DNA of 26,066 bases from a virus. Position numbers and translations under genes: made by a program. The stretch covers positions 1 through 26,066 of IMG/VR virus record IMGVR_UViG_3300011113_000375, one strand, 5' to 3'. A model generated the notes under the pieces. That model ran no database searches. It was given only the letters and a program-made list of their open reading frames with translations, and was not told the DNA's origin. Of the stretch, positions 8,605 through 26,066 are shown piece after piece. The first letter of the stretch is position 1, and every line of letters starts with the position of its first letter.

Positions 8605-9807
8605 ATGAAAAATTTAAAAATTGGAGTTACTCTGGCTTTAAAATCTCATAAAGAATCTATTTGGACAAATGGAATGAAACAAAATGTTTTAATGTTTGTA
8701 CATATGTTAAAGAACTCAAAAAACAATTACCAAGTTTGTATTTTAAATACAATCGATTTAAAGGAAGATAAGGACCCGAAACCAAACTATCTTGATGATA
8801 TAGACATTTATTTCTTTGACGATAAATACATGGAGATGGATCTAATCTTTATGATGGGAGCTCAAGTTCATGAATCTAAAATATTAAAATTTAAAGAAGA
8901 TAAAAATAAAAGGTATGTTGCATATAAATGTGGTAATAATTACATACTTAATACTGAAAAAGTTTTATTTGAAGAAAACACAAAAAAATATATTGAGTAT
9001 GAAACCACTTTTGATGAGGTGTGGTATATACCACAACAACATGAAAATAATTATGGGTTTTTTAGGACAGTGTATAGAACTGAATCTATAATGGTTCCTT
9101 TTATTTGGCATCATAAGTTCATTTTAAATAGTGTAAAAGAAATTGAAAAATCTTTTAAAGAAGGAAAATATAAGAAGGGTTATAAGTATGTTCCTAACAA
9201 AGAAAGAAAAACTATAGGTGTGATGGAACCAAACATTAATATTGTAAAATATGCCTTAATCCCATCTTTAATCGCCGAAGAATCTTACAGAACTGATATC
9301 GGTAAGGAAAAAATTGACGCTTTGATGATCACAAACGCGGAAAAGTTGAAAACTAATTATGAGTTTATGGCAATCATTAAAACTTTTGATTTGTATAAAG
9401 ACAATAGAATATCTGCGGAATCCAGATATCAAACAGCATTTATGTTAACTCAACATTTAGATGTTCTTATTTGTCACCAAGTTATGAACCCATTAAATTA
9501 TTTATATTTAGATGCTGCATTTTTAGGTTACCCAGTAATACATAACGCAGAACTTTGTAAAGATCTTGGTTATTTTTATGAAGGTTCGGATACCCTAACT
9601 GGATCTAAATTATTAAATTATGTTCTTACTGAACATGACAATCACATACTAGAATATAATGAAAAAAATGATGAAGTTCTTCAAAGATATCACGCCGATA
9701 ATGAAATGTTGGTTGAAACTTATGATAAAATGATACTCAATCTGTTTGAGGGGGGGAATAAACATTTAATATATAATCCACAAACAAATTTATACGATAA
9801 TCTATAA
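8605..9807 (+). CDS. DUF2827-family glycosyltransferase-like protein
   Basis: This 400-residue protein matches the DUF2827 family as I recall it: N-terminal SIWTNGMKQN (residues 18-27), DLIFMMGAQ, DEVWYIPQQ, EPNINIVKYALIP (208-220), the LICHQVMNPLNYLY segment and GYPVIHNAELCKDLGYFY near the C-terminus. The family occurs in bacterial polysaccharide clusters and has a GT-B glycosyltransferase-like layout; the donor and acceptor are not known. Here it follows the J-domain gene by 2 nt and is closed by a terminator, so the pair looks like one small transcript. It is separate from the larger sugar-transfer operon at 16.3-23.7 kb but may serve the same fibre or cell-surface modification. Confidence 0.78.
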   Translation: MKNLKIGVTLALKSHKESIWTNGMKQNVLMFVHMLKNSKNNYQVCILNTIDLKEDKDPKPNYLDDIDIYFFDDKYMEMDLIFMMGAQVHESKILKFKEDKNKRYVAYKCGNNYILNTEKVLFEENTKKYIEYETTFDEVWYIPQQHENNYGFFRTVYRTESIMVPFIWHHKFILNSVKEIEKSFKEGKYKKGYKYVPNKERKTIGVMEPNINIVKYALIPSLIAEESYRTDIGKEKIDALMITNAEKLKTNYEFMAIIKTFDLYKDNRISAESRYQTAFMLTQHLDVLICHQVMNPLNYLYLDAAFLGYPVIHNAELCKDLGYFYEGSDTLTGSKLLNYVLTEHDNHILEYNEKNDEVLQRYHADNEMLVETYDKMILNLFEGGNKHLIYNPQTNLYDNL

Positions 9808-9860: not shown

Positions 9861-12125
9861 TTACGCAACTACGTTACCAGCAAATTGTACAGAAGAACCA
9901 AGTTTTGGTGCTGTTACAAAATCGATTCGAACTGTATTTGGATTTGCGGCAATATTAGTGACTAAAGTATAATCATCACCGGCTTTTTGTAGTAGACCAT
10001 TCAAGTATACAAATTCAGTATTTACCACTAAAACACTGCTTAGTGGGAACTGTTTATTTGTTCCATCAACAGATCCTGTAGTTCCTACTTTTCCAAAATC
10101 AGATGCATTGATTGCTGAGATTTCAGCCGCTAATGATGCGTCGGCAGTAGATCTAGCAACTTCTTCAGTAGACACTCTTGATGTTAATGATGTATCGGCA
10201 GATGATCTTGTAGATTCTTCAGTAGCAATTCTAGACGACAATGACAACTCTGCAGATCCTAAAGCAGTATTCAAAGATGCGTCACCAGATACTCTTGAAG
10301 ATGCTTCAGTTGAAATTTCAGTAGATAATGATGATGCTAAAGATGCGTCACCAGAAACTCTTGAAGATGCTTCAGTTGAAATTTCAGTAGATAATGATGA
10401 TGCTAAAGATGCGTCACCAGATGTTCTTGAAGATGCTTCAGTTGAAATTTGACTAGACAAAGATGTTGCTAAAGATGCGTCGGCAGAAGTTCTTGTAGAT
10501 TCTTCAGTTGATACTCTTGTAGTTAAAGATGTATCGGCAGATGCTCTGTTAGATTCTTCTTGAGACAATCTTGTTGCTAAAGACGCATCGGCAGAAGCGT
10601 TGTTAGAGATTGTTACTACGATAGATGCGTCAGCAGATGCTCTTACAGATTCTTCAGTAGATACTCTTGTAGTTAAAGATGCATCACCTGCGATTCTTGC
10701 AGATTCTTCAGCAGATACTTCAGCGTCTAAATAGTTAACGATAGATGTATCGGCAGATGCTCTGTTAGCTTCTTCAGTTGATACTCTTGTAGTTAAAGAT
10801 GCATCACCTGCGATTCTTGCAGATTCTTCAGCAGATACTTCAGCGTCTAAATAGTTAACGATAGATGTGTCAGCAGATGCTCTGTTAGCTTCTTCAGTTG
10901 ATACTCTTGTAGTTAAAGATGCGTCTCCTGCGATTCTTGCTGATTCTTCAGCAGATACTTCAGCATCTAAATAGTTAACGATAGATGTATCGGCAGATGC
11001 TCTGTTAGATTCTTCTTGAGACAATCTTGTTGCTAAAGACGCATCGGCAGAAGCGTTGTTAGAGATTGTTACTACGATAGATGCGTCAGCAGATGCTCTT
11101 ACAGATTCTTCAGTAGATACTCTTGTAGTTAAAGATGCATCACCTGCGATTCTTGCAGATTCTTCAGCAGATACTTCAGCGTCTAAATAGTTAACGATAG
11201 ATGTATCGGCAGATGCTCTGTTAGCTTCTTCAGTTGATACTCTTGTAGTTAAAGATGCATCACCTGCGATTCTTGCAGATTCTTCAGCAGATACTTCAGC
11301 GTCTAAATAGTTAACGATAGATGTGTCAGCAGATGCTCTGTTAGCTTCTTCAGTTGATACTCTTGTAGTTAAAGATGCGTCTCCTGCGATTCTTGCTGAT
11401 TCTTCAGCAGATACTTCAGCATCTAAATAGTTAACGATAGATGTATCGGCAGATGCTCTGTTAGATTCTTCTTGAGACAATCTTGTTGCTAAAGACGCAT
11501 CGGCAGAAGCGTTGTTAGAGATTGTTGCTACGATAGATGCGTCAGCAGATGCTCTTACAGATTCTTCAGTTGATACTCTTGTAGTCAAAGATCCGTCTCC
11601 TGCGATTCTTGCAGATTCTTCAGTAGATAATCTTGTAGTCAAAGATGAATCAGCAGCAGTTCTTGTAGATTCTTCGTTTGATACTCTTGTGTTGATCGAT
11701 CCTTCAGCAGTAGACAATGAAGTAGATGCTGCTGCCGCAACAGATGCGTCACCTGAAACTCTTGCAGATGCTTCAGTAGAAACTGCGTTTGATCTGTCAA
11801 CGATTTCTGTTGATAAGTTAGATGCGATAGAACCTTCAGCAGATGTTGCTCTTAATACTTCTGCGTCCAAATCACTCTCTAAAGATGCGTCACCTGAAAC
11901 TCTTGCAGATGCTTCAGTAGAAACTGCGTTTGATCTGTCAACGATTTCTGTTGATAGGTCACTAGCTAATTCACCTAAAGCTAGGTCAACATTTGTAATT
12001 GACGGTGGAAACGAAGTGCCGGTAAACGCAATGTTTCCAGCGTTAATACCCGATGGATTGTAAATTTGTGGACTATTAAGTAATAAGTCCGATTGCAAGT
12101 CCAATACTATTTTAGTATTTGCCAT
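9861..12125 (-). CDS. Long repetitive tail-fibre shaft protein with C-terminal beta domain
   Basis: This 754-residue protein has a short unique N-terminus (residues 1-50) and then about 625 residues of Ser/Ala/Asp/Glu/Thr-rich repeats of the form STEES-x-R-x-x-x-DASL-x-x-R-x. The composition and spacing fit an extended trimeric coiled-coil or triple-beta fibre shaft. Within it a 40-residue unit (RASADTSIVN YLDAEV ... STEEAN) is nested in a 152-residue super-repeat. Residues 676-754 form a compact C-terminal domain (GSVDGTNKQF, EFVYLNGLLQKAGDDYT, APKLGSSVQFAG). The same domain occurs twice in the 243-residue protein encoded upstream in the same direction. A long tail fibre role is inferred. 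The repeat copies are nearly identical at DNA level, so fibre length may vary between isolates. Confidence 0.82.
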   Translation of the reverse strand: MANTKIVLDLQSDLLLNSPQIYNPSGINAGNIAFTGTSFPPSITNVDLALGELASDLSTEIVDRSNAVSTEASARVSGDASLESDLDAEVLRATSAEGSIASNLSTEIVDRSNAVSTEASARVSGDASVAAAASTSLSTAEGSINTRVSNEESTRTAADSSLTTRLSTEESARIAGDGSLTTRVSTEESVRASADASIVATISNNASADASLATRLSQEESNRASADTSIVNYLDAEVSAEESARIAGDASLTTRVSTEEANRASADTSIVNYLDAEVSAEESARIAGDASLTTRVSTEEANRASADTSIVNYLDAEVSAEESARIAGDASLTTRVSTEESVRASADASIVVTISNNASADASLATRLSQEESNRASADTSIVNYLDAEVSAEESARIAGDASLTTRVSTEEANRASADTSIVNYLDAEVSAEESARIAGDASLTTRVSTEEANRASADTSIVNYLDAEVSAEESARIAGDASLTTRVSTEESVRASADASIVVTISNNASADASLATRLSQEESNRASADTSLTTRVSTEESTRTSADASLATSLSSQISTEASSRTSGDASLASSLSTEISTEASSRVSGDASLASSLSTEISTEASSRVSGDASLNTALGSAELSLSSRIATEESTRSSADTSLTSRVSTEEVARSTADASLAAEISAINASDFGKVGTTGSVDGTNKQFPLSSVLVVNTEFVYLNGLLQKAGDDYTLVTNIAANPNTVRIDFVTAPKLGSSVQFAGNVVA
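10531..11540 (-). repeat. Nested tandem repeat: 456-bp super-repeat containing 120-bp units
   Basis: Two nearly identical 456-bp copies (10531-10986 and 10987-11442) and a partial third (11443 to about 11540) lie in frame inside the fibre gene (456 = 3 x 152). Each holds three 120-bp units (40 residues) plus a 96-bp variant unit. The third 120-bp unit of each copy carries the same silent differences (for example gcgtctcctgcg against gcatcacctgcg), so whole 456-bp blocks were duplicated recently. Confidence 0.9.
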
Positions 12126-14718: not shown

Positions 14719-16326
14719 TTATCCACATAACCACAGGTCAACTTGCGCGTTTGTTGAAACCCATGTTCTGTATACTTTATAAATATGGCTATTTCCAAAA
14801 ATGTCAACGATAGTTACATCAGGTTTGTTGATTATAGGAACGACAAATCCATTACATCCACTAACACTATTTCTAAACTGAATTGGTTGATTCATTGAAG
14901 ATGGAATCAAAATAAACACGTAACCAGGACCGGCATTTACATCTAAATAAATGTTAACAGAATCAACAGATTGAATGGTTTGAAGTAGTGTTTCATCTCC
15001 TGGATCAAATTCACTAGAAGTTAGTTTACCAAAATATAATGTTGGTGTAACAGGTGCGGAAGGTGATGGGGTTGGTGTAGGTGTTGATGTTGGTGTAGGA
15101 GTTGGTGTAGGTGTTGATGTTGGTGTAGGGGTTGGAGTTTCTGTAGGTGTGGTAGTTGGTGTTGGTGTAGGAGTTGCAGTTGTAGTTGCGGTAGGTGTCG
15201 GTGTAGGAGTTGCAGTTGTAGTTGCGGTAGGAGTAGGGGTAGGTGTTGGTGTTTGTGTTGCAGTAACACTTGGTGTTGGTGTTTGAGTAGGTGTTGGTGT
15301 TGGTGATGAACCTGGAGATGCGGTAGGAGTAGGTGTTGGTGTATTTGTTGGAGTAACTGAAGGTGTTACCGTAGGAGTTGGCGTGTTTGTTGGAGTTACT
15401 GTGGGTGTAGGAGTTGGAGTAGGGGTTGTTGTTGATGTAGGAGTTGGAGTAGGGGTTGTTGTTGATGTAGGAGTTGGTGTTGGTGTAGAAGTAGGAGTTG
15501 GAGTTGGTGTAGGTGTTACATCAATTATTATTTGTTCATTAACTATTGTCCCGGTTGGAATACCAGTAGTTTGTAAATTAGAATAATAAATGTTTGATGT
15601 TATACTTGAAAAAGGATAATCTATTATTGTTTCTGTAGATCCGGTTGTAGAACCTGGTGCAACCGTAATTGATTCTGGAATTTGAATTGTGCCCCCAGAA
15701 AAATCTTCGACGTTTATTGTAAATTCAACAGTACTTTCATTTGGTAATGAATAGTTGTAAGATATGTTTGATTGTAGAATTATAGACCCAGAAGTAATTA
15801 CGGTTATTAAAGTTGCGGAGAATGGAGATAAAGTAGTTGTTGTAGTTGTTATAGGTGGTACATAACAAATTGTTGTTGTTGTGGTTGTAACCGGACCAAC
15901 TGGTTTTGTATTACAACAAGGATATTCAACAACATAACAATTATTATCATAAGTCAAATCATCACAAACAAAACTTTCTTGTATGTTAATAAATAATCTA
16001 TCTCTAATAGGAAGAATTAAAGTACCTTCATAATTTACAATAATAAACTGACCTTCATATCTTCCAGGTTTTTTTGTTTCAAAATTCGAAAATTGATAAA
16101 ATATATAATATTCAGGTTCCGCATTAGGATCCATGAAAGTTTTATTAACTAATCCTGCGGGTTTGTTTTGAATTTTTGGAATTCCAGTTTCAATATCAAC
16201 CATAGAGAAGAATATTGATGATTCTTCCAAAAGTTGCATGAATTTATTATAATCACTTCGTCCATCCTTAACAACTTGCATTTTAAGCAACGGAAGCGTC
16301 GCGTTCTTTTTGATATAAAATTCCAT
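14719..16326 (-). CDS. Virion surface protein with long Thr/Pro-rich mucin-like tract
   Basis: This 535-residue protein has an N-terminal folded region (residues 1-140: [39 protein letters not shown]) consistent with a tail-associated beta domain. It then has CC-containing and hexathreonine segments ([18 protein letters not shown]), an Ig-like region (about 168-265), a 160-residue Thr-Pro/Ser-Pro tract (about 268-428) and a C-terminal domain with [12 protein letters not shown]. The tract would be extended and surface exposed. Thr/Pro-rich stretches of this kind are acceptors for O-linked sugars in mucin-like proteins. The next two genes upstream encode sugar transferases (an HtrL/GT-A fusion and a GT60-like GlcNAc transferase). 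TATTTATA and an AAAAAGGA-like site precede the start. Confidence 0.68.
15043..15522 (-). repeat. Low-complexity Thr/Pro-coding repeat tract
   Basis: About 480 nt of short GGTGTT/GGAGTA-type repeats (plus-strand reading) encode 160 residues of mostly Thr-Pro and Ser-Pro. Codons vary between copies, so it is not one pure microsatellite, but it is likely to be unstable by slippage. The apparent Val/Gly-rich plus-strand reading frame here is a shadow of it. Confidence 0.88.
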
Positions 16327-16353: not shown

Positions 16354-18018
16354 TTAACATTCTTTTCTTAAATCCGCATCGTAAAAATCAAATCTATTGT
16401 GTTCAGTCGGAGTTAAAAGTAATAAACCTGGTTTTAAATTACCCTTAATCATTTCTTGAAAATTATACGACATTAAAGTTTGTTCGTATGGAAAATCAAA
16501 TTTTTGTTTGATATAACATTTGTAATTACCTTCTTTAGACATGAGTATTGGCCAATTAGAAAGGTATATTTCACCAGAAACATATGGAACTCCATCTAAA
16601 GATTTTATATGTTTAAACTCAATACAGGGTGCGTTTGGGTCATAACCAAAAGAAGGTAATTTATTTTTTTCAGGCCAATGTTTTTCTCTAAATGATTGTG
16701 GAACATTATACCAAGCCCATTGTGTTTGATGTGAACCAAAAAATTCTGTAAAGTTTAATTTAAGAAAATCAAAATTTTCTTTTTCCATAATTTTTATTGT
16801 TTTATCAAATAAGTTTTTTACATATCTGTTAAAACCATTCTTACAGACCAAATCTTTGGAATAAGTAAAAATCATGTCATCTTCAAAAAAATAATAATAA
16901 CTCAAACTATCTTCATTATTAAAGTGCTCGGCAATAAATTGTCTACCTCCGGTTATACCTATATTATCTTTTTTAATATGTTCAAAATCATACAGTTTAC
17001 ATAAGACTTCATATTCTTTTGTGGTAGAAAGATCTGTAGAATTATTAAGTAGATATTTTTTAGTTTTACTTAAAAAATTAATATCATAATCAATCATGGA
17101 ATTTATTAATGACTCAAATTGTTTTGGAGAATTAAATGTAATAACGTATAAACCAACATCACCTCCTCCATTAAAATTAACTTCTTTATTTTTAGAATAT
17201 ATTTTTGTGGTTGAGTTTTTAAGACTATCAAAATACCGATACATTAAACCATCAGATTCTATTAAAGAATAATTAATCAATTCTGGATATTGATATAAAA
17301 GAATTGTAAACAAAGATTCTTCCGTCCCCATCAAACCATAACCCAATGTATTAATTAAAATATTATAATATAATGTGTTCATAGTTGTTATTGACTCCTT
17401 ATCACCACCAAAAAAACCACCTCTTGTAACCATGTCGGGTTTACTGTTTGTCATTTGACACATTTTATCAAAAGAAAATCCATGAACCTCGGTATGTGCC
17501 TCATAAGGAAAACAAACAAAATAAAATTTATTGTTTTGTGTTTTTATGTTTTGTAGAACTTTATCTTCAGTAAAATAACCTTTATGTACTGTATTTGTTA
17601 AACCAGCATCAATCCAAAATAATGAATTAGAATTAAACTTATCTAAAATTTTGGCGTCATGTAATAAAAACATTTTTGACATCACCAACGGGTTATAATA
17701 CTCTAATTTGGCTTGTGTAGATTCTTTTAACCACCCCACCTGATTATACCAATCAGGATTTGTTCTTACTTTTTGTATTAGGTTAAAATATTCATTATTT
17801 GTGAACCAACTCAAATCTTTTTCTATAAACTGTGTATTACTTTCATTTCGTATTTTAAAAACAAATTCTTTTAACTTATGATCTCCAAATATGATCATAT
17901 TATTTTCTACCTCTAATAGTTCAGAAAATTTCGACAAGTAGTAGTCAAAATTTCTTGACCAACCTTCTTGAAGGTTAGATCTACCTATATCCCATAAACC
18001 AGTTACTAATGTTATCAT
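16354..18018 (-). CDS. Bifunctional glycosyltransferase: HtrL/YibB-like domain fused to a GT-A domain
   Basis: Residues 1-265 match the HtrL/YibB (WlaTC-like) family: an N-terminal ITLVTGLWDIGRS, a conserved W-x-x-x-F-x-Y-Y start of the first helix, MIIFGD, and the active-site-like LFWIDAG (133-139), followed by FYFVCFPYEAHTE. The family is linked to LPS outer-core or capsular sugar transfer. Residues 289-554 start a second nucleotide-sugar fold (GLYVITFNSPKQFESLI) with a DxD-like E379-D-D-M382, an acidic metal-binding motif of GT-A enzymes, and a C-terminal Trp/His-rich region. The fusion suggests two successive transfers. The gene begins 113 nt downstream of the GT60-like gene and precedes the Thr/Pro-rich protein gene. 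Confidence 0.78.
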   Translation of the reverse strand: MITLVTGLWDIGRSNLQEGWSRNFDYYLSKFSELLEVENNMIIFGDHKLKEFVFKIRNESNTQFIEKDLSWFTNNEYFNLIQKVRTNPDWYNQVGWLKESTQAKLEYYNPLVMSKMFLLHDAKILDKFNSNSLFWIDAGLTNTVHKGYFTEDKVLQNIKTQNNKFYFVCFPYEAHTEVHGFSFDKMCQMTNSKPDMVTRGGFFGGDKESITTMNTLYYNILINTLGYGLMGTEESLFTILLYQYPELINYSLIESDGLMYRYFDSLKNSTTKIYSKNKEVNFNGGGDVGLYVITFNSPKQFESLINSMIDYDINFLSKTKKYLLNNSTDLSTTKEYEVLCKLYDFEHIKKDNIGITGGRQFIAEHFNNEDSLSYYYFFEDDMIFTYSKDLVCKNGFNRYVKNLFDKTIKIMEKENFDFLKLNFTEFFGSHQTQWAWYNVPQSFREKHWPEKNKLPSFGYDPNAPCIEFKHIKSLDGVPYVSGEIYLSNWPILMSKEGNYKCYIKQKFDFPYEQTLMSYNFQEMIKGNLKPGLLLLTPTEHNRFDFYDADLRKEC

Positions 18019-18083
18019 TATTTTAATATTTCTAAATTTTGAAATGGTTTGAAAAAAAATTTGTTATGTAAAAATTTTTATCT

Positions 18084-18107
18084 CCAGTTTTAATATTTCT
18101 AAACTGG
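18084..18107 (-). other. Hairpin in the gap between two glycosyltransferase genes
   Basis: CCAGTTT and AAACTGG pair as a 7-bp stem with a 10-nt loop in the 112-nt gap (18019-18130). On the minus strand it is followed within 6 nt by AAAAATTTTT, so it could be a weak terminator after the GT60-like gene. Part of the loop and arm (ttttaatatttctaaa) is repeated at 18021-18036 just before the start of the next gene, so a spaced leader repeat is an alternative. Confidence 0.4.
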
Positions 18108-18130
18108 TGTCTTATTACCAATTCCATATA

Positions 18131-19375
18131 TTATAACTGTCCTGTAATTCTATCGCACCAACCTTTTGATTTACTGTAAGGCCAAACAACCCAGTAAGTT
18201 GGTTTAATGTTTGTTATGAATTGTCTCCATATTTTACAATACCCGTCAGGGTCTGATTTCATATTTCTGATTTCAGATTCGGTTGCGTCTTGTCTAAAAA
18301 TTGTTTCATCTTTCGAATTGTGAAATGCTACAACCCAAAACTCATAATCATCTTCAGGTACTAATTTATGTGTTATATCAATACAGTGTTTAAATATTGT
18401 TGAAAAACTATTTTTCCAATCTTCCTCATTTTCAAAATCATAAGGATTTGGTGGGTATTGTTTGTCTATTGTATATTGTTGAACCGATCTATTTTCAAAT
18501 CTAATTCCAGCATATTTTTCGTAGTCTTGAACCGTTCTTTCTTTACCGAATCCATATTTTAAATCACCATCAAATTTTTCACCATCAACCCCAAGTATTC
18601 TTCTGTTTTTAGAATGTGATGAAATATTTTTTGTGTACCAGGTTGAATCATCGTCCCACTGTTTAGTTCTACCTTTTCTTGTATATTCATGCCAGATCAA
18701 AACTTTATGTGGGTGAAAAAGATCATAACCATGTGTAAACGCTCTAACAGCAATTGAAATTTCTTCACCATGGAAATAGTATTCTGGATCATGTTGAACC
18801 TCAACAGAAAACTCCCCTAATGTAAAACAAAAATGGGCGGAATAAAATCTTGATCTAATTGGTCCATTTAAATCTTTCCACCCTGGTATTACTTCCGGTA
18901 AAAAAAATACAACACCCTCTGGTGTAAATCTGTCGAACGCCATTCTCCATGGTTCGTTAACTCTACCTTCAGGATAAGTTTCTGGGTCAAATGAAGAAAC
19001 ATAACCGGTTAAAAGAGGTTTTGGGTGACCCTGTTTTTGTAGGTCTACTAACATATTAATAAACTCTTCATCCCAGTTTTTTTCAAATCTCATGTGAGAA
19101 TCAATTTGAAGTGTATATGTTTCTCCACTATAAAGTTGTTGTACTTGGTTTCTTGCCCAACAAACACCTGTGGATTCTGTGTATAAAATATCTAATATTC
19201 TAAATCTACTATCATTTCTATAGTCTTCTAAATTATCAAAATTGTCTTCTGGATGATATTGTCTTGCAATACCAAATCTTAAATTTTCTGGGTACTTTGC
19301 AGTTTTTAAAATACTTTTGATGGTGGGAATAAGTTGTGGATCCCGATATGATGCGATTTGAATAAATATTGTCAT
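18131..19375 (-). CDS. GT60-like polypeptide GlcNAc transferase
   Basis: This 414-residue protein matches the GlcNAc-transferase family that includes Dictyostelium Skp1 Gnt1 and trypanosome mucin-type O-GlcNAc transferases (CAZy GT60). It has an N-terminal IQIASYRDPQLIPTI, an ENLRFGIARQ segment, GVCWARNQVQQLYSGE, and the metal-binding QIDSHMRFEKNWDEE (I91-D-S-H-M-R-F97). A later HGEEISIAVRAFTHGYDLF block follows. Enzymes of this family add GlcNAc to Thr or hydroxyproline in proteins, so a phage or host protein acceptor is plausible. It starts 16 nt after the small virion gene, at the foot of a hairpin covering its usual ribosome-binding region. The family call is strong; the acceptor is unknown. 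Confidence 0.88.
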   Translation of the reverse strand: MTIFIQIASYRDPQLIPTIKSILKTAKYPENLRFGIARQYHPEDNFDNLEDYRNDSRFRILDILYTESTGVCWARNQVQQLYSGETYTLQIDSHMRFEKNWDEEFINMLVDLQKQGHPKPLLTGYVSSFDPETYPEGRVNEPWRMAFDRFTPEGVVFFLPEVIPGWKDLNGPIRSRFYSAHFCFTLGEFSVEVQHDPEYYFHGEEISIAVRAFTHGYDLFHPHKVLIWHEYTRKGRTKQWDDDSTWYTKNISSHSKNRRILGVDGEKFDGDLKYGFGKERTVQDYEKYAGIRFENRSVQQYTIDKQYPPNPYDFENEEDWKNSFSTIFKHCIDITHKLVPEDDYEFWVVAFHNSKDETIFRQDATESEIRNMKSDPDGYCKIWRQFITNIKPTYWVVWPYSKSKGWCDRITGQL

Positions 19376-19376
19376 A

Positions 19377-19396
19377 GTTAGTTAAAAATAACTAAC
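19377..19396 (-). promoter_or_regulatory. Hairpin abutting the GT60-like start codon
   Basis: GTTAGTTA and TAACTAAC form a perfect 8-bp stem with a 4-nt loop. On the coding strand it ends one base before the ATG at 19375 and includes the stop codon of the upstream 73-residue gene. The place where a ribosome-binding site should be is thus inside the stem, suggesting translation control or coupling to upstream translation. Confidence 0.55.
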
Positions 19397-19613
19397 ATTC
19401 GTAATAATTAAATATTTCACAATTGTTAGAGTCGATAAGTTTTATTAATAAAGAATCGACGTTATTTAACGGATATACAGGTTCGAACGTAAAAGATGGG
19501 GGTATTGTAGTACCACCAGAGACTAAAAAACAGTAAGTATTTGTTACATCACATACATATACATCATATGGTGATGTACCCGAAACACCTGATATTGTGA
19601 TTTGATGTGGCAT
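19392..19613 (-). CDS. Small virion-like protein
   Basis: This 73-residue protein has four Cys (YVCDVTNTYC, NNCEIFNYYEC) and a short beta-rich pattern (ITISGVSGTSPYDVYVCD, then SFTFEPVYPLNNVDSLLIK). I recall similar paired small proteins in marine and flavobacterial phages, but cannot name a family with confidence. It starts 2 nt after the 74-residue gene stops, so the two are translated in tandem. The disulfide-like Cys pattern and position between fibre genes suggest a small structural or decoration protein; this is inference. Confidence 0.6.
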   Translation of the reverse strand: MPHQITISGVSGTSPYDVYVCDVTNTYCFLVSGGTTIPPSFTFEPVYPLNNVDSLLIKLIDSNNCEIFNYYEC

Positions 19614-19615
19614 AA

Positions 19616-19840
19616 TTATCTTGGTACGTGTAAAACATTAGGACAATCTGGGGAGTCAACCGGTAAAATTGTGTAGTAACCAAAAGGTTCTTGTGGTGGA
19701 TACAACATACCGGGTTCAAATAAAAAAGGAATTGTAATAACACCAAGGTTTATAACTATATCTGTTGTGTCAGGATAAAATAAAACATTTGCATCTTGAC
19801 CATTATAATTATTACTTTCTATTAAAATCGATTGACTCAT
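19616..19840 (-). CDS. Small virion-like protein, partner of the 73-residue protein
   Basis: This 74-residue protein is beta-rich: SILIESNNYNGQDANVLFYP, then INLGVITIPFLFEPG, and a C-terminal YGxYxIL-like segment (FGYYTILPVDSPDCPN). It resembles small tail-surface proteins of large phages, but no function is known. It directly follows the nucleotidyltransferase gene and precedes the 73-residue protein by 2 nt. TATTTATA and an AAAAGGT site lie upstream, giving the best Shine-Dalgarno-like leader in this part of the operon. Confidence 0.6.
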   Translation of the reverse strand: MSQSILIESNNYNGQDANVLFYPDTTDIVINLGVITIPFLFEPGMLYPPQEPFGYYTILPVDSPDCPNVLHVPR

Positions 19841-19846
19841 TACCTT

Positions 19847-20326
19847 TTACATATAAATATGATTTGAAGTGGATTGTGAGATAATTTTTAAAACGTCTTC
19901 ATGTAAAATTGGATCTATCGAGTTTTTCCAGGAATCATTTTGAATTGCTAAGCAATTTCTAACACCTTTAACAGAAATAGTAGAAATTGTGGTTGGTGAA
20001 ATATGTTCTTTTATTTCTATGTCGTCGGTGTATCTAAAATTGAAAGATTCAATATCTGGTATTATTTGAACTACAACATCATCACCTTTTTCGTTATGAT
20101 ATTTTTCAATCATTTTTTTTACAGTTTCGGAACCAAAAGGTGTTGAATTTGAAATCTCTACATCTTTAACCAAAATTAACACTGGAACTCCATCGGATAA
20201 CAACCTGTTTACCATTGCAATGTGACCAAGATGATAAGGTTGGAATGTACCAACGATCATCGCTCTTTTATTTTTTTCATAGTTTCTTTTAAAACCTCCG
20301 TGAAATTTAGAATCCCAGTTTTCCAT
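19847..20326 (-). CDS. Nucleotidyltransferase (HxGH, cytidylyl/adenylyltransferase-like)
   Basis: This 159-residue protein has the Rossmann-like nucleotidyltransferase signature GTFQPYHLGH (residues 26-35), whose HxGH (H32 and H35) binds the nucleotide triphosphate. It also has an ILVKDVEISNSTPFGSETVKKM segment that fits a loop of this family. The usual C-terminal ISxTxIR is changed to something like ISTISVKGVRN, so its exact chemistry is uncertain. Likely reactions are NMN adenylyltransfer or CMP/AMP activation of a sugar or polyol phosphate. In this operon, activation of a sugar donor for the neighbouring transferases is the more attractive option, but NAD synthesis cannot be excluded. Its ATG shares one base with the stop of the upstream GT9-like gene (TAATG-type overlap). 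Confidence 0.8.
   Translation of the reverse strand: MENWDSKFHGGFKRNYEKNKRAMIVGTFQPYHLGHIAMVNRLLSDGVPVLILVKDVEISNSTPFGSETVKKMIEKYHNEKGDDVVVQIIPDIESFNFRYTDDIEIKEHISPTTISTISVKGVRNCLAIQNDSWKNSIDPILHEDVLKIISQSTSNHIYM
19852..19859 (-). promoter_or_regulatory. TATTTATA octamer upstream of the 74-residue protein gene
   Basis: On the coding strand TATTTATA lies 11 nt before the ATG at 19840 and inside the 3' end of the nucleotidyltransferase gene. This internal position could give extra expression of the two small virion-like proteins. Confidence 0.4.
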
Positions 20327-21216
20327 TATTTTAAAATTTTAGTCATGTCAAAAATATTTGTGTCTAACATAGGACACTCGTGTGTAACTCCATTAAAGTT
20401 GTAATCAAAAAGATAACTGTCTGGTAATCTAAAGTTTTCTGGTAATTTAGCAACTATATTTTCATGTAGTTTATAACCAAACAACTCTGGTGAAGTACCA
20501 ACCCAAAGTACTGTTGAAGGTAAATTCATGGCGGCTGCGGCATGTTGCAAACATGAATCAATTAAAATTCTTTTTTGAGCGTAGGCCAAAAGTGAAAACA
20601 ACTCCATGTTTGGCATCGGACCAAAATGAGCCTCAACATTTTGTAAAACGTTAGATTGATCTCGACATATTTGAATTATGTGATACTTTGTTGAAAAATG
20701 ATTTACTATGTTTTGAGCAACGTCAAATGGTATGTCCCTAGTCCAAGAGTATGTGTACTGTTGTTCTTGAAGTGGTCCTCCATTTGTTTGTAAAACCATT
20801 ACGGGTTTATCTCTAAACCATTTACCGTGTGCAATTTGTTGTTGTCTAACATTATAAACTAATTGTGGTTGCTCGTTATTATACTTCAAATCATACAATT
20901 TACACCAGTTCAAAAGTAAATGAAGTTTTTTATTTATGTGATCTGAAGTAAAATAAGGTTCATGTTTAAAAATAAGACTGTCTTTATCTTTTATATAATC
21001 GTCATAAAAATAAGGTGTTAAACCAATTCTATAAACCCTACTAACAAAATTTAAATTTATAAAAATTTCAGGATAACCACAAACAATAATTAATTCTCTG
21101 TCTGGGTGGTTATTTTTAATACATTGTGCAACCGCAGTTGCCAATACATGTTTTCCTAAACCACCTTCAATGTGGAATATAGAATATTTTTTTTCTTTTT
21201 GTTTTTCCATTTTCAT
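20326..21216 (-). CDS. GT9/heptosyltransferase-like glycosyltransferase
   Basis: This protein has a GT-B two-domain layout. The N-terminal SIFHIEGGLGKHVLATAVAQ is the glycine loop of ADP-heptose:LPS heptosyltransferase-like enzymes. A C-terminal ILIDSCLQHAAAAMNLPSTVLWVGTSPELFGY corresponds to the donor-binding segment with D-S-x-x-x-H-x-A-A. The reading frame runs back to an ATG at 21252, but that would overlap the upstream gene by 23 nt. The ATG at 21216 follows an A-rich leader like those of the other operon genes, so I chose it; a further ATG lies at 21210. It may transfer a heptose or similar sugar, extending or starting the glycan made with the TibC-like enzyme upstream. Confidence 0.78.
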   Translation of the reverse strand: MKMEKQKEKKYSIFHIEGGLGKHVLATAVAQCIKNNHPDRELIIVCGYPEIFINLNFVSRVYRIGLTPYFYDDYIKDKDSLIFKHEPYFTSDHINKKLHLLLNWCKLYDLKYNNEQPQLVYNVRQQQIAHGKWFRDKPVMVLQTNGGPLQEQQYTYSWTRDIPFDVAQNIVNHFSTKYHIIQICRDQSNVLQNVEAHFGPMPNMELFSLLAYAQKRILIDSCLQHAAAAMNLPSTVLWVGTSPELFGYKLHENIVAKLPENFRLPDSYLFDYNFNGVTHECPMLDTNIFDMTKILK

Positions 21217-21229
21217 AATTATATTTTTT

Positions 21230-22135
21230 TTATTTTGTTTCTTCAATAGCAAGATTTATTTTTTCTATGACCATTTGTGGTGTAATCGATAAATGACATT
21301 CATTTTCTCTATTTGTATTTTTAAAGATCGGGCAATCCGATTTTATATTTGGAAATATATTAAAACATCCATTACAAACATTTAAATTTTCGACTCTATA
21401 ACAATCGAATTCGTTTTGTCTTTTTGTAAAATTTGATAACATTACCACCGGAACTTTATATGCCCATGCTAACCATGAAAGTCCAGAGGATAAACCAACA
21501 AAAAATCTTGATTCATTCAAATGTGAAATTGCAACACCCAAGTCATCATGTCCATGAAATCCATAAACATTTTTTAAGTTTAAAGTGTTTTCATATGAAA
21601 TATTATAAACCTCAAAACCACGTTCATTTAAATAATCTACAACATATTGCCAACCACCCTTATAGTTCCATTGCGAAATGTATTTTATTGTTTCAGGACC
21701 TATTGTTATTTTTTTAGGATTAACGTTTCGTTCAAAAGGCACAACAGGACAATGACCCGGTTTTAAATATTGTGGCAATTGCATTGTGTCTTTAACCGCA
21801 TAAAACATTCCTCCCGTTGTGTGAGACATATTATCTTTATCATATCCGATATCCAAAAGTTTGTCTATTTGTAAAAACTTGTCATTCATTGCTGAAACAA
21901 ATTCATAATCAGACCTATGTGATTTTAATAAGTGAGGAAAAAATGTTGTAACCCAAACAAATTTTGGTTTATGATATTCCATAAAAGAATCCATAAAAGA
22001 TGAAAAACAAATTGTATCACCTAAACAAAAAGAATCGAAATGTAATAATAATTCTTTTCCTTCATAGTTTGTTATATTAGGATCACGTTGATTATATTTT
22101 AATAATTCGTGTTCTTCGTAATGCCTTTTAACCAT
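21230..22135 (-). CDS. TibC/BAHT-like autotransporter O-heptosyltransferase
   Basis: This 301-residue protein matches bacterial autotransporter heptosyltransferases such as TibC: a central SQWNYKGGWQYVVDYLNERG (155-174), the near-invariant GLSSGLSWLAWAYKVPVVML (214-233) and NEFDCYRVEN. A C-terminal four-cysteine cluster C254-x-x-C257, C268 and C280 follows. In TibC the equivalent cysteines bind iron needed for its ring-shaped assembly. These enzymes add heptose from ADP-heptose to Ser residues in the strand-loop-strand repeats of beta-helical adhesins (AIDA-I, TibA). A phage copy next to beta-repeat fibre genes is unexpected. Its ATG overlaps the stop of the upstream GT-A gene by 8 nt, indicating one operon. 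The family call is firm; the acceptor is inferred. Confidence 0.88.
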   Translation of the reverse strand: MVKRHYEEHELLKYNQRDPNITNYEGKELLLHFDSFCLGDTICFSSFMDSFMEYHKPKFVWVTTFFPHLLKSHRSDYEFVSAMNDKFLQIDKLLDIGYDKDNMSHTTGGMFYAVKDTMQLPQYLKPGHCPVVPFERNVNPKKITIGPETIKYISQWNYKGGWQYVVDYLNERGFEVYNISYENTLNLKNVYGFHGHDDLGVAISHLNESRFFVGLSSGLSWLAWAYKVPVVMLSNFTKRQNEFDCYRVENLNVCNGCFNIFPNIKSDCPIFKNTNRENECHLSITPQMVIEKINLAIEETK

Positions 22136-22910
22136 TTTTTAATTTTATATTAAATTTATTTTCAACTTCAACCACATCGTAATATTTACAAGGTCGGCCA
22201 GGCATCAAAGCTTTTTTTCCATATTCCCAAGAATTAAAATAATCCACCAAAAAAGAAATTTCAGACTCAAAATTTTTCTTGGCCGATGAATTGTTTAATT
22301 TTTTAAATATATTATTTCTCACATAACTTAAATGGTGCATTTCTATTTCTTCTCTAGTAAATATTTTACAATTACCAGGTTCCATTTTTCTAGTTGGGTC
22401 AACAATCACAGGAAACTTATTTTTACCAAATAATACATTTTTTCTTATTTTATATATCAATGGCACATAATATGTTTCCTTGGGCTCAATTCTATATATT
22501 GGTTTATTATAGTACGTAATCATTTGACAAACTGACGAATCATAATCACCATCAGTCACAATTTTTTTCATATTTCTAAACTCGTCAATATTATAGTATT
22601 CGTCAGTGTCAATTGACATATGATGGGTACATCCATTTTTAATTGAAAGTTCTAAACCTATGTTTCTTTTTTTTAATTCATTTGTACTACCTACGATATC
22701 TGTTGGCGTATACTTGTAAGTTTCATCAATAAGACCAGAAGATTTTAAATCTTCAAGTAACAAAATTAAATTTTCATCACAACTATGTCCAAAATTAGAA
22801 ACAGTTTGATAGACAACACTTATGTAATCCACCTCACCACGTATTTGTTTTATTGACCCTTCTAATAGTTCTTCACCATCAAAAACATTGTAACTTAAAC
22901 CTAATTTCAT
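22128..22910 (-). CDS. GT-A glycosyltransferase (GT2/GT92-like)
   Basis: This 260-residue protein has a GT-A layout: a start like GLSYNVFDGEELLEGSIKQI, a TNELKKRNIGLELSIKNGC helix and the metal-binding D101-T-D103 in HHMSIDTDEYYN. A later acceptor-side EMHHLSYVR segment follows. DxD motifs bind the metal and nucleotide sugar in GT-A enzymes. The family looks like GT2 or GT92-type transferases of bacterial glycan clusters; the sugar is not predictable. It overlaps the upstream GT8 gene by 4 nt (ATGA) and the downstream TibC-like gene by 8 nt, so all three should be translated together. Confidence 0.8.
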   Translation of the reverse strand: MKLGLSYNVFDGEELLEGSIKQIRGEVDYISVVYQTVSNFGHSCDENLILLLEDLKSSGLIDETYKYTPTDIVGSTNELKKRNIGLELSIKNGCTHHMSIDTDEYYNIDEFRNMKKIVTDGDYDSSVCQMITYYNKPIYRIEPKETYYVPLIYKIRKNVLFGKNKFPVIVDPTRKMEPGNCKIFTREEIEMHHLSYVRNNIFKKLNNSSAKKNFESEISFLVDYFNSWEYGKKALMPGRPCKYYDVVEVENKFNIKLKNG

Positions 22911-23650
22911 ATTTTTTTTAATTTTAATATTTTAGAATAAACATCAAACCAATATTTTTCTTGCCAAATAGTTCCTTCTTCTAAAAACACCAGGGGTTTA
23001 TTTTGCCAAGGTTTTTTTACAATAAAGTGAAGTATTTTTAAATACTTTGGAAGACCTGTGTTTTGAAAAATTTGTTTTGAATATGTTTTTAAATAATTGT
23101 ATTCTATAGGGAGTGGGGTAATCACATCACTAAAATAATAATCAATAATGTCTTGATCTAAATGTTCTGTTATACCATAGATTGTTGTTAAATGAATAAG
23201 ATGGTCGGTTATTTCTTTTTTAAGATATTTTTTTCCAATCACCATAACTCCGGTGTTGTATTGATCTATATATAACTCTCTAACAGCACCAAAGTCTTCT
23301 TTAAAATCTATTAAATAGTCCAGATTACCCATCACCACAACATCACTGTCTAAAAATATTATTTTATCTAAAAAGTCTAATGAAAATATTTCATACTTAC
23401 TATAATCACCAAAAGCAACTTGACCTTCTTGTAGTTGTTTTAATTTGTCATATTTTTTGGTATCATAGTTCATTAATGTTATGTTAGAGTAAATCTTTTT
23501 TGAAACTATTAGATCATCCTCCGTCAAATCATTACTAATTAAATAAAAGGGAATATTTTCATTTATTATTCTTGGATTAGTATCAATCAATGATTTTAAC
23601 ATCACCTCATATCCGACCAAGTATTCTTTGTTACATATACTTACAAACAT
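22907..23650 (-). CDS. GT8-family (glycogenin-like) glycosyltransferase
   Basis: This 247-residue protein has all the marks of GT8 retaining transferases: a metal-binding D101-S-D103 in KIIFLDSDVVVMGNLD, YNTGVMVI (131-138), an LDQDIIDYYF segment, and ILHFIVKKPW (H209, KPW 214-216), which contacts the diphosphate. GT8 enzymes use UDP-glucose, UDP-galactose or similar donors. It is the first gene of the sugar-transfer operon, starting after a terminator that follows the beta-roll fibre gene. Its stop overlaps the next ATG by 4 nt. The small size and intact motifs indicate an active enzyme. Confidence 0.88.
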   Translation of the reverse strand: MFVSICNKEYLVGYEVMLKSLIDTNPRIINENIPFYLISNDLTEDDLIVSKKIYSNITLMNYDTKKYDKLKQLQEGQVAFGDYSKYEIFSLDFLDKIIFLDSDVVVMGNLDYLIDFKEDFGAVRELYIDQYNTGVMVIGKKYLKKEITDHLIHLTTIYGITEHLDQDIIDYYFSDVITPLPIEYNYLKTYSKQIFQNTGLPKYLKILHFIVKKPWQNKPLVFLEEGTIWQEKYWFDVYSKILKLKKI

Positions 23651-23690
23651 ACATTTAAAATAATAAATTAAGACTAAAAGTGTATAAAAT

Positions 23691-23717
23691 AAAAAAACCC
23701 CACTTAAATGTGGGGTT
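23691..23717 (-). terminator. Rho-independent terminator after the 674-residue fibre gene
   Basis: On the minus strand AACCCCAC and GTGGGGTT pair around a short ATTTAA-type loop, followed by seven T residues. It lies just past the fibre stop codon at 23733 and separates that gene from the glycosyltransferase operon. Confidence 0.88.
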
Positions 23718-23732
23718 ATTGTTAAAATAATT

Positions 23733-25757
23733 TTATTGAGACCATCTAGCTCTACATTTCCATGATACGGAATCTGAAGCTAAACCAGTCACCTGAAGTA
23801 TTACTCTTGCCGGTGATGTTGTGTAAGTTAGATTTGCGGTAACACCACCTGGGAAAGTTGAATAACTTAAGTTTGTCGTTGGAGCTAAAGATAATTGTGA
23901 AAGAACTGAAGATCCGTCAACAAGATAAGCTGAAGTAAATTCTTGTGATAATCCTGAAGATACTAATGACGTATCAAAGGCATTACACCATACTTTTACA
24001 TTTGTAACCCCACCCGCTAGTTCACCTGTAGAATTTTCGATTTTAATTATTTCAGTTGGGGTTGCGTCATTAGTAACTAACGTAGCGGTTGTATATTTGT
24101 AACCGTTAACAACAACACCAGTATCTGTAGAACCAGTTGTTCCAAGTGGATTATCAATTGTTGTTAATTTAATTTCTTTAGTGGACATTTGTATATTGCT
24201 TTGTGTCACCAAATTGTCTCTAACTTGTACTGAAATTGAATTATTTTGTTGGTCATAAACACTATCTACAGTATCTCCACTTGCCGCTGTTTGCATAAAT
24301 ATTTGAGCACCTAACCCAGAATCATTTACACTCATATTACCTTGAGTATTTTCAGAAATGATTGCCGTTGATGTGGTCATTACAATGTTTCCACCTGTAA
24401 GTGGATCAACTGCAATTGTTTGTGCTAATGATGGTGTAGATCCGGTTAAATCATCACCAAAGACAACTAAACCTGCGGAAGTAATTCCTAAATTAGAAAT
24501 TGAAGTTCCTGTGGATACATTTTGAATGTTCAAATAAGGAACGTAAACCGTGTCACTATCGTTTCCAATAATTCCAGAACCACCAATAATCGCTGAATTT
24601 GTTGCATTTAATGTAGAACTATTAGAAATTATATAAGATGAATCACCACTAACAACGTTATTATTACCTACTGCGAATGAACAGTTACCATCAATAAAGT
24701 TTCCATAACCTCCAGCAACTGTTGAGTTATATTGTAAAACAGTATTAAACTGACCTCCAGCGATTGTAGACCCATCAAGAATTACAGTGTTTTCAGAACC
24801 ACCACCTATTGTACCGTATGTTGCCAAGTTATCATTACTAAAACCTCCACCGATTACTGACATGTTTGATAGTACAGTATTTAATCTACCACCACCAATA
24901 AAAGAAAGTGATCCTAATGCTAAATTGTTAAATCCTGCAACAATTGATGAACTATCGGCGTCTAACGTATTGTACAAACCACCACCAATAAAACCATAAT
25001 TTGATTCAATAGTGTTGTTTTGACCAGCACCAATAATCGCACATTCAGAATTAACTGTGTTATAGTTACCACCAACTATTGTTGATACTGAACATATTAC
25101 CGTGTTATCTTTACCACCACCTATGAATGAAAATTCACCAAGGGCTTCATTAAAAGAACCACCATGAACACCAGAACATAAATTATTTGCGATGTTAGAA
25201 AATCCACCAGTAACAATTGAATTAAGACTAGATGCAGTATTATTACTACCGCCACCTATAAAGCTATACTGACCAGATGCTGTATTTAAACATCCACCTA
25301 CAATACTAGAGTTAACATCAGTTGCCGAATTTAGATAACCACCAGAAACAACAGAACAACCACCAGTCGCATCATTCAAACAACCTCCACCTATTGTGGA
25401 TACTAAACCAGACGCAAAATTTGTTGTACCTCCGTTTATCGTTGCATTACCTGCAATTACTGTGTTTCTAAAACCACCATTTATCGATGATAAAACACCA
25501 GTGGTTGTATTACAATAACCACCACCTATGTTTGAATAACATCCTGTGGTTGTGTTTCTTCTACCTCCATCAATGTTTGATAAATACCCGATATTTGTGT
25601 TACAATAACCACCAGAAATTATACCATACTTTGATAAAGAAGTGTTTCCAAAACCACCTAATACCACTGAATTTGGCCCTAAAGCCTTATTATTATATCC
25701 AGTTCTTACTGTTGTGCTAGGACCACCTACCGGATCGTCAATTATTACAAAAGCCAT
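23733..25757 (-). CDS. Beta-roll fibre protein with 15-residue YadA-like repeats
   Basis: This 674-residue protein has about 23 tandem copies (residues 19-363) of a 15-residue unit with consensus GG-x-x-N-T-x-x-x-x-x-S-x-I-x, for example GGCLNTASGQYSFIG. The spacing resembles the left-handed beta-roll repeats of YadA/Hep-Hag trimeric adhesin heads. A short region around 380-400 (NATNSAIIGGSGIIGN) ends the stack, a VYVPYLNIQN segment follows, and the rest is a beta-rich C-terminal part ending with WKCRARW. At least ten repeats carry a Cys, which is unusual for this fold. It is likely a trimeric tail fibre. The Ser/Thr-rich, strand-loop-strand repeats make it a candidate substrate for the TibC-like enzyme downstream. 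Confidence 0.82.
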   Translation of the reverse strand: MAFVIIDDPVGGPSTTVRTGYNNKALGPNSVVLGGFGNTSLSKYGIISGGYCNTNIGYLSNIDGGRRNTTTGCYSNIGGGYCNTTTGVLSSINGGFRNTVIAGNATINGGTTNFASGLVSTIGGGCLNDATGGCSVVSGGYLNSATDVNSSIVGGCLNTASGQYSFIGGGSNNTASSLNSIVTGGFSNIANNLCSGVHGGSFNEALGEFSFIGGGKDNTVICSVSTIVGGNYNTVNSECAIIGAGQNNTIESNYGFIGGGLYNTLDADSSSIVAGFNNLALGSLSFIGGGRLNTVLSNMSVIGGGFSNDNLATYGTIGGGSENTVILDGSTIAGGQFNTVLQYNSTVAGGYGNFIDGNCSFAVGNNNVVSGDSSYIISNSSTLNATNSAIIGGSGIIGNDSDTVYVPYLNIQNVSTGTSISNLGITSAGLVVFGDDLTGSTPSLAQTIAVDPLTGGNIVMTTSTAIISENTQGNMSVNDSGLGAQIFMQTAASGDTVDSVYDQQNNSISVQVRDNLVTQSNIQMSTKEIKLTTIDNPLGTTGSTDTGVVVNGYKYTTATLVTNDATPTEIIKIENSTGELAGGVTNVKVWCNAFDTSLVSSGLSQEFTSAYLVDGSSVLSQLSLAPTTNLSYSTFPGGVTANLTYTTSPARVILQVTGLASDSVSWKCRARWSQ
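24669..25703 (-). repeat. 45-bp repeat array encoding beta-roll units
   Basis: About 23 tandem 45-bp units encode the 15-residue repeats. Unlike the 456-bp fibre repeat, the units differ widely in DNA and protein sequence, so the array is old or selected for diversity rather than freshly duplicated. Confidence 0.85.
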
Positions 25758-25811: not shown

Positions 25812-26066
25812 TTATTGCCATTTAATGTGTAAAGAAGTGTTAGTTCCGTTTCCATCATTTGTACATCTGTAAATTGCGCCTATTGGTAAAGACGCTAAAT
25901 TAGTTTCTGTTGGTATTGAATTTACAATAACGTGAGTTAAAGCAAGTCCACCACCATTAACTAATAGGTTATTTACGTGAGTCGTGTATGAACAAGTTGA
26001 TGTAATGTTACAACCAATAATACTTGAGTAAACACATGTTGCTTTGTTTGAATTTCCACCTAAAAT
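25812..26066 (-). CDS. Beta-roll fibre protein, C-terminal part (cut by window edge)
   Basis: The minus-strand frame is open from the right edge to a TAA at 25812-25814, giving 84 residues of a protein whose start lies outside the window. It begins with ILGGNSNKATCVYSSIIG, the same GG-x-x-N-x-A-x-x-x-x-S-x-I-x-G repeat as the 674-residue protein, and continues into a C-terminal part with LPIGAIYRCTNDGNGTNTSL and IKWQ. That ending resembles the tail of a fibre domain. The two genes are therefore paralogues or tandem fibre modules, each closed by its own terminator. Confidence 0.75.
   Translation of the reverse strand: MLGGNSNKATCVYSSIIGCNITSTCSYTTHVNNLLVNGGGLALTHVIVNSIPTETNLASLPIGAIYRCTNDGNGTNTSLHIKWQ

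Follow-up and report, generated by a model that had tools for sequence, protein, structure and literature searches.

Glycosylation of phage virions is known from few cases. In mycobacteriophages, glycans on the capsid and tail tube are attached by phage-encoded glycosyltransferases (GTs) and act as a shield (cited in PMC12619734 as Freeman 2023). Xanthomonas phage XacN1 has also been reported to have glycoproteins (PMC5852040). The Moraphages, which are large aquatic metagenomic phages, have four core glycosyltransferase groups as described in the accessible part of PMC12619734, and that part does not propose fibre decoration. Outside phages, the closest described enzymes are the autotransporter heptosyltransferases of the BAHT family (TibC/AAH; TIGR04414), which combine a common fold with the catalytic base Asp-110, a four-cysteine iron finger and Trp-305, and whose genes lie beside a repetitive beta-solenoid-type surface protein. 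Enzymes of the TibC type pass heptose to Ser and assemble as a dodecamer. The characterised TibC-type enzymes are protein-directed and the K230A mutant of TibC is deficient in sugar binding (PMC4358343); the TibC iron finger contacts the beta-helix acceptor (eLife 03714, PMC4358343).

Here we present an analysis of a 26,066-nt stretch of DNA (hereafter the window) from a large freshwater phage, in which a row of sugar-attaching enzymes is encoded beside a repetitive surface fibre. This linkage, which often extends to genes for sulfate-attaching enzymes, is maintained in related phages and suggests that such phages decorate their fibres with sugar chains. The candidate acceptors are fibre and baseplate proteins, accompanied by TibC-like, PF11397 and sulfotransferase genes, unlike the capsid and tail tube glycosylated in the mycobacteriophages as cited above. 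A preliminary description of the window knew of no such phage system, which is too strong in view of the mycobacteriophage and XacN1 reports.

Organization of the locus

All genes of the region lie on the minus strand. Downstream of the beta-roll fibre gene (23733..25757) are five packed genes that overlap by 1-23 bases. They encode a GT8 glycosyltransferase (22907..23650; PF01501, E 2.4e-19), a GT-A-type protein (22128..22910) in which a DxD-like motif, SIDTDEYY, can be read from the sequence, a short TibC-like protein (21230..22135; TIGR04414, E 1.5e-34; 4rap, E 4e-17), a GT9-like protein (hereafter GT9b; 20326..21252; phrog_8954, E 3.4e-9) and an NMNAT/CTP_transf-like, that is, adenylyltransferase-like, nucleotidyltransferase (19847..20326; PF01467, E 1e-5; TIGR00125, E 2.5e-7). 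This agrees with the gene list of the preliminary description, with the qualifications that the GT9 match is weak (PF01075, E 0.007) and that the GT-A-type gene has no Pfam match and, among the fetched relatives, matched only the window itself. GT9b is read from a TTG start, and its real start may sit slightly inside. The operon described as directly downstream of the fibre holds as far as gene order and overlaps are concerned. However, a strong terminator-like hairpin (23696..23717, minus strand; 8-bp stem with 5 GC pairs, followed by a T tail) separates the fibre from GT8, so the fibre and the cassette are probably not on one transcript. No tRNA or Rfam match was found in the window.

The beta-roll fibre

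The putative acceptor is a fibre of 674 amino acids, composed of 21 exact 15-residue units with the consensus GGxxNTxxGxxSxIx and of additional degenerate ones; the earlier count of about 23 strand-loop-strand repeats is fair when the degenerate end units are included. Self-identity is 0.34 at a lag of 15 residues, compared with about 0.06 at most unrelated lags, and 1000 shuffled versions of the sequence contained at most one unit. Profile matches are weak (YadA_head, E 0.043; LbR_Ice_bind, E 0.063), and profile searches gave no match to AIDA-type, TibA-type or other acceptor repeat models. The fibre is presumably a virion protein. The C-terminal end of a second beta-roll fibre, with GG..N/S.I repeats, lies upstream (25812..26066, minus strand) in an ORF that runs off the window, truncated where the contig ends; in relatives, roll fibres occur as a tandem pair. 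An enrichment of Ser/Thr in cassette-adjacent roll fibres was considered and rejected (3.89 versus 3.93 per unit), and Ser/Thr positions are alike in roll fibres adjoining the cassette and away from it.

The TibC-like protein

The structure model of the TibC-like protein superposes best on TibC itself (4rap; Z 24.9, 287 residues aligned, rmsd 3.0), the best other GT9 chains scoring Z 18-19.6. Its cysteines 254, 257, 268 and 280 align with the iron-finger cysteines 339, 342, 358 and 370 of TibC, and all four are kept in 17/17 members of the short TibC-like clade, as is Asp-110 (TibC numbering, used hereafter for conserved positions); Trp-305 is also retained. The donor pocket, by contrast, is altered throughout the clade. 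Lys-230 is replaced by Ala or Ser in all 17 members, whereas it is Lys in 96/97 bacterial sequences; Arg-286, which contacts the adenine, is Ala, Ser or Val in 17/17 as against Arg in 94/97; and Thr-226 is Ile or Leu in 15/17. The N-terminal beta-barrel (TibC residues 1-97) is absent, the profile match beginning at position 78 and ~25 residues preceding the catalytic domain, and the beta-hairpin thumb region is 8 residues shorter. The TIGR04414 score of 119.6 bits lies below the curated cut-off of 200 bits.

The protein is TibC-like in fold and catalytic base and, as had been claimed, has the four-cysteine cluster, but its donor-pocket residues do not support the designation heptosyltransferase: the active site is incomplete, a result that the preliminary description had itself named as refuting its proposal, and the protein is not a canonical heptosyltransferase. 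The substitutions, the missing barrel and the short thumb indicate that the donor sugar is probably not ADP-heptose. Residue conservation was assessed with an alignment query that returned 505 distant relatives and was used only for this purpose; the single TibC-like sequence gave no match when used as query against bacterial genomes. Three residues before the Lys-230 position the short clade has gained an invariant Lys, and the conserved Lys-151 of the TibC-like protein is a candidate counterpart of Lys-230. The substitutions open a concrete way to probe donor and acceptor selection by TibC-type enzymes.

Co-occurrence with roll fibres and sulfation genes

A 15-residue roll fibre is present in 15/15 contigs that carry the short TibC-like clade and in 3/32 related contigs that do not; further contigs gave 4/4 and 3/19, respectively, so that the pooled counts are 19/19 and 6/51. 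The short TibC-like gene is usually directly downstream of the roll fibre. TibC-type domains are also widespread in long multi-domain phage GTs, mostly without roll fibres, so a fibre acceptor cannot be predicted from homology to TibC alone. A tree-based test of the TibC/roll association on the GT60-like tree was not significant, being underpowered with 3 informative independent pairs, and few independent events underlie the association.

GT9b, rather than the TibC-like gene, accompanies beta-roll fibres most consistently. It occurs in 19 of 50 contigs, 17 of which have a 15-residue roll; in the remaining two, a 22-residue roll fibre lies at a distance of 4-6 genes. The adjacency recurs in several orders (roll-GT9b-sulfotransferase in L267, sulfotransferase-GT9b-roll in L268 and convergent in L230), and GT9b lies by a roll fibre without the short TibC in G046, G061, G065 and G070. 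The proposed co-occurrence of TibC-like and beta-roll genes is borne out for the short clade, although GT9-like and sulfotransferase genes track roll fibres in more phages. GT9b is usually accompanied by a sulfotransferase (PF13469, E 4e-20, 73.5 bits against a gathering score of 27) and an APS-kinase-like gene (PF01583, E 8.4e-19, 68.5 bits against 21.1), which points to fibre decoration, often with sulfation. The nucleotidyltransferase is paired with the APS-kinase-like gene in relatives, and the family phrog_10255 aligns at its start with the APS-kinase-like protein and at its end with the nucleotidyltransferase. The 26-kb window itself has no sulfotransferase or APS kinase gene, and no sulfotransferase was found in its closest relative (G001, 91 kb). 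In one genome, a further roll cluster lacks GT genes.

A second glycosyltransferase module

Two glycosyltransferase-type genes and a Thr/Pro-rich protein, overlooked in the preliminary description, lie further downstream on the same strand. The first gene (18131..19375) encodes a GT60-like member of PF11397, 'Glycosyltransferase (GlcNAc)' (E 7.6e-68, 230 bits against a gathering score of 21; phrog_24687, E 5.5e-164). We take PF11397 to correspond to CAZy family GT60, with protein targets, and the product is likely a protein-directed glycosyltransferase. The second (16354..18018) encodes an HtrL_YibB-type protein of 554 amino acids (PF09612, E 7.3e-21), with its C-terminal half unassigned; its PDB match to NLRC4 (E 0.016) was taken as chance. 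Both genes are present at 78 loci, which also have a variable interval that includes GT10 and rhamnosyl-O-methyltransferase-like genes.

The third gene (14719..16326) encodes a putative baseplate-anchored, mucin-like protein, in which a BppU-like N domain (residues 1-136; AF2 pLDDT 80.5, family alignment) is followed by Thr tracts and a TP-rich region. The top PDB matches of the modelled N domain are phage baseplates (6v8i, 9m8o and 4v96, Z 8.0-8.7; 3uh8, Z 7.2), which are modest values, Ig-type domains scoring 7.2-7.5, and no Pfam baseplate family matched in 27 members of this protein family. A BppU-like/TP protein lies within three genes of the GT60-like/HtrL pair in 67/78 loci. The head is followed by Thr tracts and TP arrays in many relatives and stands without a TP array in many others. 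Exclusive clustering of TP-rich proteins at the GT60-like locus was considered and ruled out, as they are scattered in another genome.

Proposed function and alternatives

On balance we favour, though without strong conviction, the reading that the region of this large T4-like aquatic phage is a locus for virion decoration, and infer its activity, acceptors, sugars and benefit as follows. Module A (GT8, GT-A, TibC-like, GT9-like and nucleotidyltransferase genes) would act during virion production and most likely attach short glycans, O-linked through Ser/Thr, to the adjoining beta-roll fibre. The TibC-like protein retains the solenoid-contacting iron finger, and its donor is probably not ADP-heptose. 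In most relatives, sulfotransferase, APS-kinase-like and adenylyltransferase-like genes would provide for sulfation of the glycan, whereas the lineage of the window lacks sulfation genes. Module B (the PF11397 GlcNAc-type transferase and the HtrL/YibB-type protein), the conserved core of the lineage, would most likely glycosylate baseplate or fibre proteins, the adjacent BppU-like Thr/Pro-rich protein being the best candidate. The benefit may be shielding from proteases or of receptors, or altered adsorption. Self-decoration of the fibre, as first proposed, is partly supported: co-occurrence, adjacency and the TibC fold and iron finger speak for it, and the incomplete active site, the missing acceptor-repeat match, the unchanged Ser/Thr positions and the closer tracking of roll fibres by GT9b count against it. 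The favoured reading is likewise weakened by the small number of independent events, by the roll cluster that lacks GT genes, by the terminator-like hairpin and by the scattered TP-rich proteins. A more specific version, in which a phage-specific TibC branch with a rebuilt donor site works with the GT9-like partner on beta-roll fibres and phage PAPS-type enzymes in most of the lineage turn the product into a sulfated glycan coat, is possible but doubtful.

If decoration is correct, conserved fibre-linked cassettes of protein-directed GTs and sulfation genes would allow many large aquatic phages to alter the chemistry of the surface that they present to the receptor, which would affect adsorption and host range as well as their resistance to proteases or grazing. 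In contrast to the BAHT enzymes, the altered TibC-like protein has an acceptor candidate with 15-residue roll repeats rather than AIDA-type ones, and the phages that encode it carry additional GTs and, in many cases, genes for sulfation.

The cassette could instead modify a host or cell-surface polysaccharide, in receptor masking or superinfection exclusion, with the fibre nearby through co-evolution with host receptors. Surface polysaccharide loci, too, typically contain GT9, GT8, GT10, O-methyltransferase, sulfotransferase and carbamoyltransferase genes, and similar gene sets are listed in papers on sulfated bacterial capsules. We nevertheless regard this as unlikely: the annotated neighbours examined include no WecA/PglC-type lipid-linked initiator, flippase or polymerase, and PF11397 is presumably associated with protein targets. 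The protein-directed activity of characterised TibC-type enzymes (PMC4358343) and the reported XacN1 glycoproteins (PMC5852040) also argue against it. Modification of DNA bases appears very improbable; phage GTs that glycosylate DNA are known (Pyle 2024, as cited in PMC12619734) and the DNA polymerase gene of the lineage lies near the module, but no base hypermodification genes were recognised among the genes examined, and the genes to which the GTs are linked encode fibres, a sulfotransferase and baseplate-type proteins.

Two further readings concern the acceptor and the donor. That the mucin-like baseplate protein is the main acceptor of all the enzymes and the beta-roll fibre a mere neighbour would fit the conservation of the PF11397, HtrL-type and BppU-like/TP genes as a group and the TP arrays of many relatives; we hold it to be improbable, since many other heads lack the array, TP proteins are scattered, and it is the roll fibre that the GT9-like and TibC-like genes follow. 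True O-heptosylation of the fibre with host ADP-heptose, the original proposal, has only a slim chance of being correct: against the close TibC fold, the conserved Asp and cysteines and the adjoining repeat candidate stand the loss of Lys-230, Thr-226 and Arg-286, the missing barrel, the shortened thumb and a fibre that matches no acceptor-repeat family.

Relatives of the core module

The PF11397 protein is 47.5% identical to ORF334 of XacN1, and the corresponding genes of XacN1 and of Stenotrophomonas phages RAS14 and CM1 are 44-48% identical. XacN1 and RAS14 also have an HtrL-type gene. They differ from the window in that neither has a 15-residue roll fibre match and their loci have no TibC-like or GT9b neighbours; the XacN1 interval holds a NodU-type carbamoyltransferase. 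XacN1 is thus a cultured relative with the core module, and its proteomics data are deposited (PXD008065). In the window, two small minus-strand ORFs lie between the nucleotidyltransferase and the PF11397 gene. The 73-aa ORF (19392..19613) resembles, by eye, TP-rich protein heads at L050 3259 and L037 9087. The 74-aa ORF (19616..19840) resembles, also by eye, other Thr/Pro-rich heads (L003 12888 and L018 3640) and stops where the TP array of the relatives starts.

Organization of the glycosylation genes

The preliminary description had listed a beta-roll fibre and adjacent glycosylation genes, a gene list that ORF and profile evidence bears out. The roll fibre (23733–25757, minus strand, as are all genes in this section) has a clear 15-residue period with 21 exact units, shuffled sequences giving at most 1 unit. 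The GT8, GT-A, TibC-like, GT9-like and nucleotidyltransferase genes (module A, 19847–23650) resemble a translationally coupled operon, with overlaps of 1 to 23 bases between them, and a terminator-like hairpin sits between this set and the fibre. Overlooked had been a PF11397 'GlcNAc' glycosyltransferase (18131–19375; E 7.6e-68) and an HtrL_YibB-type protein (16354–18018; E 7.3e-21), here termed module B, and a Thr/Pro-rich protein (14719–16326; TP-rich protein) encoded directly downstream of the latter.

A TibC relative with an altered donor site

By structure comparison, the TibC-like protein has the fold of TibC (Z 24.9 over 287 residues; 18–19.6 for the next solved GT9 structures), without the N-terminal barrel and with a short thumb. 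Among the features taken for testing from the TibC paper (PMC4358343; TibC numbering), Asp-110, Trp-305 and all four iron-finger cysteines are retained, and Thr-226, Lys-230 and Arg-286 are altered. In an alignment of 181 relatives, among them bacterial sequences, long phage sequences and a short phage clade, position 230 holds Lys in 96/97 of the bacterial set and in 64/66 of the long phage set, but Ala or Ser in 17/17 members of the short clade; all 17 have a Lys three residues earlier, where the others have mostly Ala or Ser. The TibC mutant K230A is sugar-binding-deficient (PMC4358343), and the protein should therefore not be filed as a heptosyltransferase. It would act as a TibC relative for which a different donor, or a rebuilt donor site, is more likely. 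The proposed 'TibC/BAHT-like heptosyltransferase' with a four-cysteine cluster stands as to fold and cysteines, but 'heptosyl' is not supported by the donor-pocket residues.

TibC-type domains also occur inside multi-domain phage glycosyltransferases of great length (up to 1497 aa; loci L019 3238–7731, L037, L039, L012 and others), which have no roll fibres nearby and keep the canonical Lys-230.

Linkage to roll fibres and sulfation genes

Of 47 related contigs with lengths of 60 kb or more, 15 contain a member of the short TibC clade, and a 15-residue roll fibre is present in all 15 of these versus 3 of the 32 others; the contigs are mutually related, and a tree-based co-occurrence test holds three informative pairs only. 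A second contig set gave 4/4 with short TibC versus 3/19 without. Where the position is visible, most contigs have the cassette immediately downstream of the roll fibre; in contig G015 the adjoining fibre has a 22-residue roll repeat instead, and in a marine-type relative (L197) the roll fibre is several genes away. The GT9-like gene occurs in 19 of 50 de-duplicated contigs, 17 with the 15-residue roll and two (G028, G058) with a 22-residue roll fibre close by. Four contigs (G046, G061, G065 and G070) have GT9-like and sulfotransferase genes near a roll fibre without the short TibC-like gene; since gene order and orientation vary among such contigs, the linkage does not reflect a single fixed arrangement. 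The 304-kb phage contig G021 (regions 175–200 kb and 259–265 kb) has two GT9-like and sulfotransferase pairs flanking roll fibres, and also a second roll-fibre cluster without glycosyltransferases.

In most relatives the GT9-like gene is followed by a sulfotransferase (PF13469, E 4e-20) and an APS-kinase-like protein (PF01583, E 8.4e-19), in a stretch that also holds the nucleotidyltransferase family of the window and a DUF2061 protein. The first part of phrog_10255 (230 positions) matches the kinase-like protein and its last part the nucleotidyltransferase, which suggests that the two belong to one pathway; beside a sulfotransferase, PAPS supply is the natural reading, NMNAT-type chemistry being a possible alternative. 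The window holds the nucleotidyltransferase alone of this set, and a sulfotransferase was not found in 91 kb of its closest relative.

Virion glycosylation by phage glycosyltransferases is already known, in mycobacteriophages (as cited in PMC12619734) and in XacN1 (PMC5852040), and PMC12619734 describes large aquatic phages with several core glycosyltransferases. What appears new is that a TibC branch with an altered donor site, a GT9-like partner and sulfation genes are combined next to a fibre; a limited search of open papers did not find this combination.

Module B and possible acceptors

The PF11397 and HtrL-type genes occur together in 78 loci, with 0–7 variable genes between them, including GT10 fucosyltransferase-like and rhamnosyl O-methyltransferase-like genes and, in Xanthomonas phage XacN1, a NodU-type carbamoyltransferase. 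The XacN1 locus is preceded by genes for the baseplate wedge and for a 3313-residue protein; proteomic analysis of this phage is reported to have identified at least two glycoproteins, which the authors suggest are produced by its own glycosyltransferases (PMC5852040).

In our judgement the most likely reading, if far from a certain one, is that the cassette decorates fibre and baseplate proteins of the virion. Of this, the gene families, folds, residue changes and linkage are shown; the roll fibre and the TP-rich protein would be exposed on the virion and would serve as acceptors, and the choice of sugars and the resulting benefit are inferred. That the enzymes instead modify the host surface seems rather unlikely. 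Residues 1–136 of the TP-rich protein fold like the N domain of phage baseplate upper proteins; Thr tracts and an extended Thr/Pro array (TP array) come next. This protein is a good, if unproven, candidate acceptor for module B; against this, the array is missing from many relatives that have the head, and TP-rich proteins are scattered in one genome. Glycosylation chiefly of this protein is unlikely. True heptosylation is improbable given the altered donor-site residues, and DNA modification is the least probable of these alternatives.

Two tandem ORFs (19392–19840, minus strand; 73–74 aa) resemble the heads of relatives' Thr/Pro-rich proteins and end exactly where the TP arrays of those proteins start; the arrays look like modules gained and lost.

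Other genes in the window

The window, a complete IMG/VR record of 26,066 bases, is a piece of a larger virus, its close relatives being contigs that reach 300 kb or more and largely share its gene order. It encodes several fibre-type proteins, a DNA polymerase B (5143–7926) and a head-tail adaptor-like protein (3646–4770). A 697-aa protein (1521–3614, plus strand) contains a complete Fe/Mn superoxide dismutase (PF00081, E 6e-22; PF02777, E 3.7e-39) flanked on its N-terminal side by a part in which a zinc-peptidase-like HEWIHEW motif occurs, and on its C-terminal side by a part without domain assignment. Beside a DnaJ-like ORF, the product of 8605–9807 (plus strand) strongly matches DUF2827 (PF10933, E 3.4e-94) and is possibly one more glycosyltransferase-type protein. 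Adjoining other fibre-type ORFs, a 754-aa protein (9861–12125, minus strand) built of repeats such as ESARIAGDASLTTRVSTEE is probably a coiled fibre.
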